The position numbers were made by a program, and so were the translations under genes. A stretch of DNA of 40,615 nucleotides, from positions 1 to 40,615 of the IMG/VR virus record IMGVR_UViG_3300006802_000201. One strand, 5' to 3'. Positions within the stretch are counted from its first letter, which is position 1. The number at the start of each line of letters is the position of its first letter. The DNA is from a virus. This document shows, in pieces, positions 25,338 through 39,768 of the stretch. The notes under the pieces were generated by a model. It was not told the origin of the DNA. It saw only the letters and a list, made by a program, of their open reading frames with translations, and searched no databases.

Positions 25338-26877
25338 AACGATACTCCTTGTCGGTGTGGACGAACACGAGGTTCTTCTTGGCCCGGCTTCCGCACACGT
25401 ACATGGTCCGGTGTTCGTCGTCGGGGAACTGGGTGTTGACGCAGGCCTTGGTTGAGGACAGATCGACTGCGACGTTGTCCTCCTCGCCACCCTTGGCGGC
25501 ATGCCCGGTCGAGAGTTTGATGCGCGGCTCGCCGGAGATGTCTTCGCCCCGGCGCTCGAGGCCACGGATGTAGTCGGCGTCGTAGCTCCCGAGGTTCAAG
25601 ACCTGAAGCGCGTCCATGCCACGCGCCGCGATCATCCCGGCCGAGGCCACGAGCTGGTCGTAGTCGTAGAGGCCCTCGGGGTTGAAGGCTTCGAGGAGCT
25701 TGGTGGACCCGCGCTTGAGGGCCGCAGCGTCGCCTTGCTTGGGCAGCATCTCATAGAGCGCCTTGATCGCGCCCACCGGGAGAGCCCCGCCTGTCTGCAG
25801 GGTGCGCCACCCCTTGATCGCATCGGCCAGCTTGGGATCGACGGAGTTGCGGCCGTAGACCTTGAACATGTAGCCGTCCTGCCGCAGGCGCTGGGCCCAC
25901 TCCTGCACGTAGGAGTTGGTCCGGGCCAGCACCATCCACTTGCCCTCCCGCAGGTCAAGGTGCCGAGGCCCGATGACCCTGCTCACCGAACCTTCGTGCC
26001 CGGCCGGATGGAACTCCTTGGGCAGGCGGTCGCGAATGCGGCTGGAGATACCGACGCACGTCTCGTAGACGGGGCGAGGCAGGCGGTAGCTCTGGGAAAG
26101 CACCTCGATGTTGCGCGAGCTTTCCATGAAGAGCTTAACCTTGACGCCAGCCCAGCGGTGGATCGCCTGATCGTCGTCGCCTGCGAAGAGGACGCGGTCG
26201 GACCGCTCGGCCAACAGCTCCACCATCCGCCATTGCAAGGGCGTCAGGTCCTGCGCTTCGTCGACCACGATGAGCTTGAGCCTCGGACCTTGGAGCTCCT
26301 GCACCACGACCTCGTTGATCATGTCCACGAAGGAGAACTTGTTGTACGTGCTCTTGTAGAACATGAGCTCCTGCTCGACCTTCTTGAGCATGGGCCACGA
26401 CAGGTTCCAGTCGTTGGTCTCGGAGAACTCCTGCTCAAGGGGAATGCAGCGCATGATCGAGCGCTCGAGGATGGAGACATACTTGTCTCCCCCTACGGTC
26501 TGGGCAATGATCAGGCCGTCTCTGGCAGAGCGATCATCGACACCCTTGATGTCGATGCCAAGGCTCCGGCCGAAGTCTTTCCAATCCGCCTGCGCCATGA
26601 TCTGCGAGGGCGCGATCCCGAGCAGCCGCAGGCCCATGGCATGCAGCGTCTGAAACCACGGCAGGTCCTTGGGCGTGAGGTTGAAGCGGGCGCAGGCGCG
26701 AGACCGGGCTTCCTCCACCGACTTGCGGGTGAAGGACACCATGGCGATCTCGTCAGGCCTCGTCCCCCGGGCCAGCTCCTGCTCCACTTCCCAGATCATT
26801 CGGTGGGTTTTTCCGCACCCGGGGGGACCGAGCAACAGCTTTCTCCGTTCCGTGAAACTTGCCTCTGGGTCGCGCAT
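25327..26877 (-). CDS. UvrD/Rep-like superfamily 1 DNA helicase
   Basis: ATG 26877 has a strong SD (GAGGAG, spacing 7), so the 516-aa form is preferred over the longer open frame. Motifs: Walker A GPPGCGKT (17-24); Ia VSFTRKSVEEA; Walker B IVVDEAQD (203-210); III FAGDDDQAIHRWAG (about 231-244); IV LSQSYRLP; V/VI LSTGHAAKGGEEDNV and YVCGSRAKKNL. It is an ATP-driven 3'-5' DNA unwinding enzyme by family. It lies between primase and polymerase and is probably the replicative or recombination helicase of the phage. Its 5' end overlaps the AlpA-like gene by 125 bp. Confidence 0.9.
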   Translation of the reverse strand: MRDPEASFTERRKLLLGPPGCGKTHRMIWEVEQELARGTRPDEIAMVSFTRKSVEEARSRACARFNLTPKDLPWFQTLHAMGLRLLGIAPSQIMAQADWKDFGRSLGIDIKGVDDRSARDGLIIAQTVGGDKYVSILERSIMRCIPLEQEFSETNDWNLSWPMLKKVEQELMFYKSTYNKFSFVDMINEVVVQELQGPRLKLIVVDEAQDLTPLQWRMVELLAERSDRVLFAGDDDQAIHRWAGVKVKLFMESSRNIEVLSQSYRLPRPVYETCVGISSRIRDRLPKEFHPAGHEGSVSRVIGPRHLDLREGKWMVLARTNSYVQEWAQRLRQDGYMFKVYGRNSVDPKLADAIKGWRTLQTGGALPVGAIKALYEMLPKQGDAAALKRGSTKLLEAFNPEGLYDYDQLVASAGMIAARGMDALQVLNLGSYDADYIRGLERRGEDISGEPRIKLSTGHAAKGGEEDNVAVDLSSTKACVNTQFPDDEHRTMYVCGSRAKKNLVFVHTDKEYRYVL

Positions 26878-27079
26878 AGAGCCACTCCTCAATCTCTTTT
26901 TTCGAGAACCGGGACACCGAGTTCTGATCCATTTCATCGCCAAGTGAATAGGGCTTCGGGAATTTGTCGTCCTTGATCCACTTGTACAGGGTTGATTCCG
27001 ATAGGTTCAGCCAACGGCACACGTCCGCGGCCCTGAGCATTCGGTCGTCCTGCTCAGAAGGGAATACGGGCAGCTTCAT
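26753..27079 (-). CDS. AlpA/excisionase-like HTH DNA-binding protein
   Basis: ATG 27079 with SD GGAG. In this 108-aa protein, residues 12-65 are a winged-helix MerR/AlpA-type domain (RMLRAADVCRWLNLSESTLY, KWIKDDKFPKPYSLGDE, SRFSKKEIEEWLYARP). The C-terminal 40 residues (basic, then Gly/Ala-rich) are encoded inside the helicase gene and look like out-of-frame filler, so the functional part may be only the first 70 residues. AlpA-type proteins act as transcription regulators or excisionases; with no integrase in view, regulation of the replication operon is more likely. Confidence 0.8.
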   Translation of the reverse strand: MKLPVFPSEQDDRMLRAADVCRWLNLSESTLYKWIKDDKFPKPYSLGDEMDQNSVSRFSKKEIEEWLYARPRGKFHGTEKAVARSPRVRKNPPNDLGSGAGAGPGDEA

Positions 27080-28595
27080 CGTTCGTCTCCACTTTCATAT
27101 CTACTTGCTCGTCCTTGTAGGCTGGCACCCACCAGACCCGGACGGTTGTCGTTCCCCCATCCTCTTTCCTCACGCCTTGGTGGCCGTGGCAGGGGCGGCC
27201 GTCGTTCAGGTCCTTGATGAAATTCTGCACCTGCACCCGGCTCACATGGGTGAACCCGCGAAACTTCAGAAACTCCATCAGGCCTGCGAAGGTAAACTTC
27301 GTGAGGCCCTTGTCCGTCCAAGGCTTGCCCATCGCAACTTCCTCGGCCACCATGGCGCGGATGTTGCTGGTGCAATACTCCCGGATCAGGTCTTCGAACT
27401 GGCCGCGCAGCGTCAGCTCCGGCGGGGCCTCGAGGTGGATGGCGGTGTCGAGAAGACCGTTCACCACCTTGTTCCACTCGGCCGCCTTGATCGTGGGCGG
27501 CATGCGGTCAACCTGTTCGACGCATACGTTCTGGAAGGCTGTCTGGCTGGTCAGTTGCTGCGAGGTGATCTCGAGGCGCTTGCCGTCGTAGTCGAGGAAG
27601 AACATCTTGGGCGACGAGTTGAGGATCGTCATCCCCGTCAGCTTCGGGAACTCAACCGCCCCGCCACTGCCGATGCCAAGCTTTCGGCTCCGACACAGGT
27701 CTTTGTTGCAGAAGTTGCAGAGCGGGGTCGCCGTGCACTGATAGCCGTAGTCCTTCTTGTCGTGCTGCTTCTGGAGGCCGACCACCTCTTCGGCAGGCAG
27801 CGGGTTCTCGCAGTAGCGGACGTTGCTCTCCTCAAGCATCCGCTTCCACCCTTCAGAGCTTGCCTTCTTGTGTGCCGTAGTCAGGTTGAACAGGGTGGTG
27901 TTGCGGTAGTCGTTGATCACACCCTGCAGGATGATCTGTTCGAGGCAGGGCGGGTAGTCCTTCAAGTCTTCCCGCTTCTCCACGTGCGGCGCAATCTCCA
28001 GCTTGGACAGCGGGACACGCGTCGCCTCGACCTTGTCGAGAAACTCGACGAGCGTCATGGCCTCGCCTGTTTCCGACACGGCATAGCGCACCGTCTCGTC
28101 GGCGTTGAAGTAGGGCGAGTTGATGAAGTTGCCCACGTCGCCACGGTCGAACAGAATCTTGTCCTGCTTCGGGAAAATCTCACGGCCAGCGTAGCCCAAG
28201 AGAGCTGCCACCTCGGTCAGGTATTCTCGGACCATGGCCGCTGGATACCAGTCGTCCAAGAACAGATAGAGGTGCGCGCCGCCAGACTTCGAGCGGCACT
28301 GCACGAGCGGTAGCTTCTGGCTCTTGATGCGAGCAGCCAGCGCCTTTTGGTCAAGGTCGTAGTCATCGATGTCGATGGCCCCGAACTTGCATTCGTTCTT
28401 GGAATTGATCGGGATCGACCCGACGCCCTGCTTCCCAGCAAGGTGCGCCTTGACGTGCTCCTCCGTCATCAACTCCCGTATGACATAGCTGTTTGCTTCT
28501 GCTTTGCCGTTTCTCGCAACTCGGCCCACGGTCGTTCGACCGTGCGCCAAGTCCGATCCTTCGAAGGCAAGCAGAAGACGTCTGGCAAGGGACAT
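27054..28595 (-). CDS. Archaeo-eukaryotic-type (TOTE-like) DNA primase
   Basis: This 513-aa protein starts at ATG 28595 with SD GGAGA. The catalytic domain has the AEP metal motif FGAIDIDDYD (Asp75, Asp77) and the nucleotide-binding motif SKSGGAHLYLFL (Ser104 to His108), plus IFPKQDKILFD. This is the arrangement of AEP primases of the TOTE class. A cysteine cluster follows (Cys262, then QCTATPLCNFCNKDLCRSRK, Cys287-293-296-301) that could hold zinc or an Fe-S cluster, as in other primase accessory domains. The C-terminal half has helical PriCT-like character. It should lay down primers for the adjacent family A polymerase. Confidence 0.85.
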   Translation of the reverse strand: MSLARRLLLAFEGSDLAHGRTTVGRVARNGKAEANSYVIRELMTEEHVKAHLAGKQGVGSIPINSKNECKFGAIDIDDYDLDQKALAARIKSQKLPLVQCRSKSGGAHLYLFLDDWYPAAMVREYLTEVAALLGYAGREIFPKQDKILFDRGDVGNFINSPYFNADETVRYAVSETGEAMTLVEFLDKVEATRVPLSKLEIAPHVEKREDLKDYPPCLEQIILQGVINDYRNTTLFNLTTAHKKASSEGWKRMLEESNVRYCENPLPAEEVVGLQKQHDKKDYGYQCTATPLCNFCNKDLCRSRKLGIGSGGAVEFPKLTGMTILNSSPKMFFLDYDGKRLEITSQQLTSQTAFQNVCVEQVDRMPPTIKAAEWNKVVNGLLDTAIHLEAPPELTLRGQFEDLIREYCTSNIRAMVAEEVAMGKPWTDKGLTKFTFAGLMEFLKFRGFTHVSRVQVQNFIKDLNDGRPCHGHQGVRKEDGGTTTVRVWWVPAYKDEQVDMKVETNDEAARIPF

Positions 28596-29999: not shown

Positions 30000-30054
30000 A
30001 AGTATATCCTCTTCAGGTTTGTGGTTGAACAACAAGTCGTCTTGCTGTACATGG

Positions 30055-30085
30055 AGTATATCGGAGGATATGCCATGACTGTCAA
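30055..30085 (-). promoter_or_regulatory. Promoter for the replication operon
   Basis: On the minus strand a perfect -35 TTGACA (30085-30080) is followed after 17 bp by GATATA or after 19 bp by TATACT (30060-30055), leaving about 50 nt of leader to the GTG at 29999. The -35 lies in the first codons of the divergent SNF2 helicase. A weaker rightward candidate is TTGAAC (30025-30030), 17 bp, TACATG (30048-30053). Confidence 0.45.
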
Positions 30086-31529
30086 GCTGAATTTTAAGAC
30101 GACGCCATATGCCCACCAAGTGACCGCGCTTGAGCGGTCCATGGACCGAGAATCCTATGGCTTCTTCATGGAGATGGGAACAGGAAAGTCGAAGGTCCTG
30201 ATCGATACCATCTCGAACCTGCACCTCGAGGGCAAGATTGACTTCGCCTTGATCATTGCACCGAAGGGCGTGTACCGCAACTGGGTTGCCAAAGAAATCC
30301 CGGAGCACATGCCGGACGAGATCGAGAAGCGGGTGATTCGCTGGGTCTCGTCTGCCAACAAGCAGCAAGAGGCGGAGATCAAGTCGGTCGGCAAGGCCTT
30401 CGGTGGCCTGACCCTCTTCGTCATGAACGTCGAAGCCTTCTCTGCTCTCAAGGGCAAGCAGGCAGGCGAGTGGCTGGGCAAGAAGTTCGGGCACCGTGGT
30501 CTGATCGGCATCGACGAATCGACCACAATCAAGAACCACAAGGCCAAGAGGACCAAGGCCCTCGTCAAGATCGCCTCGCTCTTTCGGTACCGCCGCCTGC
30601 TGACAGGTTCGCCTGTGACCAAGTCGCCCATGGATGTCTATGCTCAATGCGAGTTCCTCGGACCTCGGCTCTTGGGCTGCGATAGTTACTACTCGTTCCA
30701 AGGGCGCTATGCCGTGACGCAGAAGCGCAAGATGGGGGCACACAGCTTCGAGCAGATCGTGGGGTACAAGAACCTTGAAGACCTGTCACACCGCATCGAC
30801 CAGTTCGCCTACCGCGTCCTGAAGAAGGAGTGCCTCGACCTGCCGGAGAAGACGTACACCGCCCGCTACGTGTCGATGACCGACGAGCAGTCGAAGATGT
30901 ACGAGGAGATCAGGAAGGACGCATTCACCTTGGTCGATGGGACAGAGCTTGTGTCCACCCCTGTCGTCATCACCCAGCTTCTCCGCCTGCAACAGGTGCT
31001 GTCAGGGCATCTCAAGACAGACGACGGCGAGGTGTTGACGTTCAAGTCGAACCGCATGGAGGCTCTCCTCGAGACCATGGAAGAGCACGATGGCAAGGCC
31101 ATCATCTGGTCTCGCTTCCGGCACGACATCATCGGCATCACCGAGGCGCTTCGCAAAGAGTATGGCGAGAATGCGGCGGCCGCATACTTTGGCGACACCT
31201 CTGACGAGGAGCGCAACCGTATCGTCCGTGACTTCCAGATACCGGGCCACCCGTTGCGGTTCTTTGTGGGCAACCCTTCGACCGCAGGCTATGGTCTGAC
31301 GCTGACAGAGGCGAACCTCGTGGTCTACTATGCCAACAGCTTTGACCTCGAACATCGGCTGCAGTCAGAGGATCGGGCGCACCGCATCGGGCAGCGCAAC
31401 CCTGTGACCTACGTCGATCTGATCACGGAGAAGACGGTGGACGAGAAGATCGTGGCGGCGCTGCGGAACAAGATCGACATCGGCGCTAAGGTTCTGAGAG
31501 AGGAGGCAAGGAAGTGGCTGCAACTCTGA
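30075..31529 (+). CDS. SNF2-type superfamily 2 helicase/translocase
   Basis: ATG 30075 with SD GGAGGA (30063-30068). In this 484-aa protein the motifs are Q-like TPYAHQVTALE, Walker A MEMGTGKSK (GTGKS 35-39), Ia LIIAPKGVYRNW, Walker B IGIDESTTIKN (DEST 147-150), III LLTGSPVTKSP, V GYGLTLTEANLVVYY and VI QSEDRAHRIGQRNPVTYVDL. The last is the classic SNF2 RAHRIGQ signature. Such proteins translocate on duplex DNA and occur in phage replication modules. It is transcribed opposite to all other replication genes. Confidence 0.9.
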   Translation: MTVKLNFKTTPYAHQVTALERSMDRESYGFFMEMGTGKSKVLIDTISNLHLEGKIDFALIIAPKGVYRNWVAKEIPEHMPDEIEKRVIRWVSSANKQQEAEIKSVGKAFGGLTLFVMNVEAFSALKGKQAGEWLGKKFGHRGLIGIDESTTIKNHKAKRTKALVKIASLFRYRRLLTGSPVTKSPMDVYAQCEFLGPRLLGCDSYYSFQGRYAVTQKRKMGAHSFEQIVGYKNLEDLSHRIDQFAYRVLKKECLDLPEKTYTARYVSMTDEQSKMYEEIRKDAFTLVDGTELVSTPVVITQLLRLQQVLSGHLKTDDGEVLTFKSNRMEALLETMEEHDGKAIIWSRFRHDIIGITEALRKEYGENAAAAYFGDTSDEERNRIVRDFQIPGHPLRFFVGNPSTAGYGLTLTEANLVVYYANSFDLEHRLQSEDRAHRIGQRNPVTYVDLITEKTVDEKIVAALRNKIDIGAKVLREEARKWLQL

Positions 31530-38714: not shown

Positions 38715-38735
38715 ACTTGTGTACTACAAACAAGT
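38715..38735. promoter_or_regulatory. Operator-like inverted repeat over early promoter
   Basis: ACTTGT (38715-38720) and ACAAGT (38730-38735) are inverted around 9 bp, overlapping the -10 and spacer of the early promoter. This spacing suits a dimeric repressor. Confidence 0.4.
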
Positions 38736-38746
38736 TGGGGTGTCAA
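38718..38746 (-). promoter_or_regulatory. Early leftward promoter candidate
   Basis: Minus strand TTGACA (38746-38741), spacer of exactly 17 bp, TACACA (38723-38718). The -35 is perfect and the -10 weak. The first early gene starts at 38683. Confidence 0.5.
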
Positions 38747-38805
38747 GGTTGGGGGTGAGGGGAGCTCGGGTGGGAGGTTCGCGGGCCTCGGACCTTGGTG
38801 CTTTA

Positions 38806-38823
38806 CGAGTTCTCCTTATAGCG
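38806..38823 (-). repeat. 18-bp outward inverted repeat, left copy
   Basis: CGAGTTCTCCTTATAGCG; its reverse complement matches 39036-39053 in 17 of 18 positions. Read leftward it gives CGCTATAAGGAGAACTCG, containing a TATAAG element facing the early genes. Confidence 0.8.
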
Positions 38824-38868
38824 CCAAATCTCAAACAAAAAAAAAAAAAAAAAATAAATTCAAAGTGA

Positions 38869-38893
38869 CCGTAAACACCGTAAAATGCGTAAA
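38869..38893 (+). repeat. Three 9-bp iteron-like direct repeats
   Basis: CCGTAAA (38869), CCGTAAA (38878) and GCGTAAA (38887) repeat at an exact 9-bp period, bracketed by TGACC on both sides, in AT-rich DNA. Reminiscent of initiator- or repressor-binding iterons. Confidence 0.6.
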
Positions 38894-38951
38894 TATGACC
38901 TATAAGTATTTGATTTCCAAAAACATTATTTTTTACACTACGAAAAAGTCA

Positions 38952-38969
38952 TTTACGGTTCATCGTAAA
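38952..38969. repeat. Inverted pair of the iteron core
   Basis: TTTACG (38952-38957) and CGTAAA (38964-38969) are inverted around 6 bp, using the same hexamer core as the iterons. A further TTTACG is at 38802-38807, next to the left inverted-repeat copy. Confidence 0.55.
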
Positions 38970-39035
38970 ATCTTCTCAGTCTGCCCTGTCCACTTTCGTT
39001 TTCTGCAGGCGAAACGCCTCTCGTTTGGGAAAAAT

Positions 39036-39053
39036 CGCTATAAGGGGAACTCG
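39036..39053 (+). repeat. 18-bp outward inverted repeat, right copy
   Basis: CGCTATAAGGGGAACTCG, the partner of 38806-38823. It faces the terminase gene, 73 bp before its start. Confidence 0.8.
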
Positions 39054-39066
39054 GCGGAGGCCCTGC

Positions 39067-39095
39067 TTGTAAAGACTTGCCGCGCCCGGTATGAT
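39067..39095 (+). promoter_or_regulatory. Sigma70-type promoter before terminase gene
   Basis: TTGTAA (39067-39072, four of six), 17-bp spacer, TATGAT (39090-39095, five of six). The terminase gene starts at 39127. Confidence 0.55.
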
Positions 39096-39126
39096 TGTTG
39101 AAACACCACAAGTAGACAGGTGCAGC

Positions 39127-39768
39127 ATGGTTGAGAAGAAGAAGCCGGGGCCAGTGCCTCGCGTCAAACGCGGTATGGTCGTGGACCCAGCGCCCCTCTT
39201 GAAGTCGCAGGCCGAGCTGGAGCTCGAAGAAGAGTTTGGCCGGGAGATCACTGTCAGGCAGCGCAAGTTCTGCGAGGAGTATGTGGAAGGGCGGATGACG
39301 GCGACCGAATGTGCCCGTCAAGCTGGCTACAACGTAGGCTCGGCGGGCGAGATAGCTTCGAAGCTTCTGAACGGTCGCGACTTCCCGCACATCCCCCGAT
39401 ACATCGCCCAGCTCCGCGAGGAAAAGGAGCGGCTTTACGGCGTCACTCTGTCGGGTCAGCTCGAACGTCTTTACAAGCTGTCTCGCGCTGCCGAAGACGG
39501 CGGGCAATTCTCTGCCGCCATCAACGCGGAGAAGATCAGGTCTGCGCTCGGTGGCCTGACGGTTGACCGTCGCGAGAACATCAACACCATCGACCAGATG
39601 ACGCGGGACCAGATCACCGCCCGCCTTGCCGAGCTGCAGCAGAAATACCCGCAGGCTTTCATCGTTGACGCGGAATACACGGAGGTGCCCAGTGGCAGGA
39701 CCAGAGGCAAGGGTGTGGGCAAATATGCGGAAATCGCTGCCCCCGAGGTGCCACGCGACGCGGATTGA
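39127..39768 (+). CDS. terS: Terminase small subunit
   Basis: ATG 39127 with SD GACAGG. The 213-aa protein starts with a basic Pro/Lys-rich tail (VEKKKPGPVPRVKRG), then the small-terminase HTH (ITVRQRKFCEEYVEGRMTAT, ECARQAGYNVGSAGEIASKL), an oligomerisation helical core (SGQLERLYKLSRAAEDGGQF, AAINAEKIRSALGGLTVDRR) and a C-terminal segment that would bind the large subunit. It recognises the packaging site and regulates the motor; the large subunit is not in this window. Its 3' end overlaps the nuclease gene by 77 bp. Confidence 0.85.
   Translation: MVEKKKPGPVPRVKRGMVVDPAPLLKSQAELELEEEFGREITVRQRKFCEEYVEGRMTATECARQAGYNVGSAGEIASKLLNGRDFPHIPRYIAQLREEKERLYGVTLSGQLERLYKLSRAAEDGGQFSAAINAEKIRSALGGLTVDRRENINTIDQMTRDQITARLAELQQKYPQAFIVDAEYTEVPSGRTRGKGVGKYAEIAAPEVPRDAD

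Follow-up and report, generated by a model that had tools for sequence, protein, structure and literature searches.

Genomic context and layout of the locus

The window analysed here is a virus record of 40,615 bases. By PolA and TerS, the closest named phages were the Pelagibacter phages HTVC023P and HTVC027P, phage 023Pt_psg01 and DSL-LC04. Judged by its TerS, PolA and archaeo-eukaryotic primase (AEP) sequences, the phage is a member of the HTVC023P-type pelagiphage/DSL-LC04 group. The nearest named phages have genomes of 57-62 kb, and the window is thus probably a genome fragment. The 1.1-kb region used as a DNA query gave no match in named phages. The main replication genes (PolA, a UvrD-like helicase, the AEP primase and the phrog_2402 family) run leftward. 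A SNF2-family helicase gene (30021-31529, plus strand) lies within this leftward block, divergent from a DUF7307 (Pam3 gp33-like) gene. The features considered below are as follows.

27054-28595, minus strand: archaeo-eukaryotic primase (AEP-TOTE/PrimPol) with a predicted winged-helix-like C-terminus, candidate initiator
38718-38746, minus strand: candidate leftward promoter outside the left arm, TTGACA-17-TACACA, weak -10, found by inspection and not passing the TAnnnT filter
38802-38807, minus strand: inverted iteron TTTACG, adjoining the left arm
38806-38836, minus strand: left arm, outward-facing; 18-bp core at 38806-38823 with TATAAG, upstream GTTTGAGA
38824-39035, no strand: AT-rich centre (67% AT), a candidate for DNA unwinding, containing a poly-A tract at 38837-38854
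38870-38893, plus strand: three direct iterons CGTAAA with a 9-bp period (38870, 38879, 38888)
38932-38957, minus strand: inverted iteron copies TTTACA (38932) and TTTACG (38952)
38964-38969, plus strand: additional direct iteron CGTAAA
38981-38988, plus strand: CTGCCCTG box, between the iterons and the right arm, conserved in most lineages found through TerS
39023-39053, plus strand: right arm, outward-facing; 18-bp core at 39036-39053 with TATAAG, upstream GTTTGGGA
39067-39095, plus strand: sigma70-like promoter for terS, TTGTAA-17-TATGAT, outside the right arm
39091-39768, plus strand: terminase small subunit TerS (phrog_51), start by inspection probably ATG 39127

The original prediction described an outward-facing inverted repeat around an AT-rich island, and this description held. 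The two 18-mers were present at 38806-38823 on the minus strand (CGCTATAAGGAGAACTCG) and at 39036-39053 on the plus strand (CGCTATAAGGGGAACTCG), identical at 17 of 18 positions, each containing TATAAG and both pointing away from the centre. A degenerate search of the whole window allowing up to 3 mismatches returned no third 18-mer match, in line with none having been noticed by eye; the number of chance matches expected in the window at this threshold is 0.02, and two hits were obtained in 0/100 shuffles. The inverted repeat is longer than the 18 bp noted earlier, extending over 31 nt at 77% identity (38806-38836 and 39023-39053), with 186 nt separating the two halves and the upstream GTTTGRGA forming part of it. 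The 31-nt repeat outscored 60/60 dinucleotide shuffles.

The centre between the cores measures 212 bp, as predicted, and is AT-rich (67% AT in a window of 60.6% GC), being the most AT-rich stretch of its length in the window. Six copies of CGTAAA/TTTACG lie in and beside it, three of them direct at 9-bp steps. Several direct repeats of one short word and an adjoining AT-rich region are among the features by which an iteron origin is recognised, and both were identified here, the unwinding role being predicted.

The locus had been placed between divergent early and late genes. A short leftward ORF is present on one side and TerS on the other, and the terms early and late reflect position only. 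Translation of terS more likely begins at ATG 39127, because the ORF-finder start at 39091 overlaps the -10 of the sigma70-like promoter. Repeat units of the GGGCCTCGGACCTTGG type were observed directly outside the left arm (38780-38801); their copy number differs among relatives, with several in L016.

Conservation of the unit across related lineages

Close relatives were located via TerS, and 20 further stretches were fetched via the primase gene alone. A similar unit was identified in approximately 25 related lineages, comprising GT-framed 9-bp iterons, inverted copies at a further distance of some 60-80 bp and a pair of outward arms. The iteron layout is alike in most of the 25, with direct copies at 0, 9 and (18) and inverted copies near 60-80, and one inverted copy often adjoins the left arm. 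Iteron arrays were also present in most of the 20 primase-fetched stretches, which links the unit with the replication module and not with TerS alone.

The arms recur in relatives. Lineages L003-L026 mostly keep both as TATAAGGGRAACTCG, with small changes, facing outward and approximately 226-241 bp apart; across lineages the consensus is roughly TGGGAAAA-n3-CCTATAnAGGGA. The near-complete G001 contains exactly two arm copies. In most lineages found through TerS, conservation of the CTGCCCTG box is stricter than that of the arms. Of 25 lineages, 18 have a TATA arm at 48-56 bp ahead of the first iteron, where shuffles gave an expectation of 0.82; the nominal P value (1e-24) is overstated, as the lineages are related and not statistically independent. 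TATA alone is uninformative on orientation, since CTATAG and TATATA read the same on both strands (inward control, 15/25). Orientation was therefore scored with a right-arm matrix from which TATA and the lineage's own sequence were left out, and in 20 of 21 lineages the left arm received its higher score in the outward orientation.

The best long-range inverted repeat of the region terminates in outward TATA arms in ten lineages, among them DSL-LC04 and psg01; the arm sequences differ between lineages, and each score was reached by at most 1/60 shuffles. The long inverted repeat was missing or located elsewhere in L030, L031, L036, L046 and the two cultured pelagiphages, HTVC023P and HTVC027P. 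The paired-arm architecture is common in the group, and not universal.

Iteron words and their candidate reader

The iteron word differs between lineages at equivalent positions: GTATGCA in L055, L058 and L062, GTCATCA in L054 and L056, GTAATCA in L036 and L046, and GTCCTCA/GTCCCCA in L031. The primase-fetched lineages carry GTTCTCA, GTAAACA, GTATCCA, GTAACCA, GTAACGA, GTAACAA, GTGACA and GTCTCA. In 12/25 lineages the first word has CA at positions 6-7; the frame is GTNNNCA in about half of the lineages and looser in the remainder. Where the words are distinctive, they concentrate at this single place.

Between L055 and L056, TerS is identical over 197 residues, yet the iteron word is swapped at all six positions, from GTATGCA to GTCATCA. 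A replacement of the whole set under an identical TerS indicates that one protein probably reads all six sites, and that this protein is not TerS, which was ruled out as the iteron reader on this comparison. L055 (284-462) and L056 (471-660) have near-identical terS regions, and the replacement at 6/6 sites represents a natural specificity swap.

The primase was considered as a candidate reader. It belongs to the AEP-TOTE family (PF22548), which was found in 13/13 records tested; residues D75, D77 and H108 are invariant and the catalytic residues are conserved. The primase profile matched CAPP PrimPol structures at 1e-10. The predicted fold (mean pLDDT 79.7; pTM 0.42, which leaves the domain arrangement uncertain) matched CAPP PrimPol (1.6e-9) and RSF1010 RepB' (1.8e-4). 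The predicted secondary structure of the C-terminal domain is winged-helix-like, which makes it a candidate DNA reader; a sequence search with this domain in the PDB returned implausible hits only (sucrose isomerases). Covariation between the C-terminal domain and the iteron word was suggestive for G008/G009 against G003, and contradicted by G016 and G018, which share a recognition helix and differ in their word. The C-terminal domain is thus a candidate iteron reader whose covariation with the word is not clean.

Interpretation of the unit

We infer that the unit is a replication origin. The favoured reading, to which we assign a rough probability of 0.62, is that 38802-39053 is a bidirectional iteron origin in which the arms are paired initiation elements. 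The original prediction had offered an origin or packaging element with two binding sites; its origin half is supported by the iterons, the AT-rich centre and the layout in approximately 25 lineages with an archaeo-eukaryotic primase. A phage-coded initiator other than TerS would bind the short GT-framed iterons (CGTAAA in the window), which lie as direct 9-bp repeats on one side of the AT-rich centre and as inverted copies on the other, and would thereby open the centre. The outward arms would be the paired sites of the unit, one per direction, serving either for synthesis of the first primers or for loading of the helicase/primase, and priming or loading at both would yield two forks. By analogy with the lambda, SPP1 and RSF1010 origins, the arms may mark the priming or loading of these forks. 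Counting against an origin, the unit keeps near terS, as a packaging site would. GC skew gave no consistent inflection at the region and was dropped as an origin marker, being weak and tracking gene orientation.

The unit resembles the phage lambda origin and iteron plasmid origins in having replicon-specific initiator sites arranged in an array next to an AT-rich stretch for unwinding (PMC5043065). It differs from them in its 9-bp repeat unit, its far-side inverted copies and its two outward arms, and no member of the lambda O or plasmid Rep families was identified as the reader here. SPP1 oriL and oriR likewise combine direct repeats with an AT-rich unwinding element in a lytic phage; SPP1, however, relies on gp38 to read its two origins and has both a helicase loader and a DnaB-type helicase, whereas a single unit was seen here together with an AEP primase and a UvrD-like helicase (PMC6316719). 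The ssiA/ssiB sites of RSF1010 oriV provide one priming site per strand, as the arms may, and also work with an AEP primase, RepB' being among the primase fold matches (PMC4434180). Unlike ssiA/ssiB, the arms do not fold into the defining hairpins: no conserved hairpins were formed, and folding was no better than in shuffles in most cases. Single-strand initiation of the RSF1010 type is consequently unsupported in detail.

Paired phage-specific promoters, the other proposal made for the repeat, are disfavoured and now appear unlikely. The arms would be -10-like elements used with a phage activator or an altered host RNA polymerase, the left arm driving early genes leftward and the right arm terS and the late genes rightward. 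The outward orientation, the TATA core and the site between divergent genes in most lineages are consistent with this, and the arms look like start regions of phage RNA polymerases (CTATAAGGGGA), their 3' end reading CTATA and then purines, as in T7-type promoters. However, the PF00940 polymerase was absent from 15 group records (the window itself being a genome fragment), while the T7 control scored 1e-109, and the near-complete G001 has its two arm copies only; T7-like promoters were accordingly rejected. The published transcriptome of HTVC027P describes a phage that has no RNA polymerase gene and uses the host RNA polymerase throughout (PMC12753301). The arms were also rejected as sigma70 -10 elements, as the arm alignment contains no -35 hexamer 16-18 nt upstream and the last base of the TAnnnT hexamer is not conserved, and a promoter scan of the window listed none using either arm. 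Separate sigma70-like promoters lie outside the right arm, at varying distance, in most of 17 lineages tested, although many are individually only weakly above shuffles. Filter-passing promoters outside the left arm were found in fewer lineages than for the right arm, and none in the window. Furthermore, past the left arm L056 and L062 carry a rightward gene, and past the right arm psg01 carries leftward genes only, so the arms persist in three relatives where at least one of them faces no sense gene.

A packaging signal, in which terminase would bind or nick at the arms on either side of a pac or terminal-repeat region, also appears improbable. In every genome where both were located, the unit lies within approximately 0.7 kb of terS, upstream or downstream, and the arms of L055 and L056 stay alike under their identical TerS while the iterons change. 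In SPP1, pac and the start of terS overlap, and the cut is flanked by two TerS-binding parts, pacL and pacR (PMC6316719), giving a similar arrangement of two elements around a core; the iteron words, in contrast to SPP1 pac, are not determined by TerS. The position next to terS therefore accords with the packaging half of the original prediction, whereas the change of words under an identical TerS argues against the iterons as sites read by it. The fixed spacing ties the arms to the iterons, and on inspection no clustering of contig ends at the arms was seen in the fetched loci. It is very improbable that a phage transcription regulator uses the iterons and arms to control the two flanking promoters: multiple sites in both orientations between two promoters would suit an operator region, but distinctive words concentrate at this one place, the distances from the arms to the flanking promoters vary against a near-fixed arm-iteron distance, and the unit persists where the orientation of the flanking genes has changed.

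Beyond the origin reading itself, we tentatively suggest, as a possibility with the odds somewhat against it, that the HTVC023P-type and related aquatic phages share an undescribed class of phage replicator, with a constant frame, an interchangeable word and the AEP primase-initiator as its reader, comparable to incompatibility groups among co-infecting phages. The constant frame would consist of the paired outward arms at a near-fixed distance from GT-framed 9-bp iterons, the word being replaced everywhere at once. If the origin is conserved and its word switchable, origins could be sought computationally in many uncultured phage genomes, and it would become testable how related phages that share a host keep their replication systems apart.

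A small protein carrying an HTH-like sequence is encoded between the primase and the UvrD-like helicase (26753-27079, minus strand). Matches to it were present in 7 of 13 records, and it may be a regulator or an accessory replication protein.
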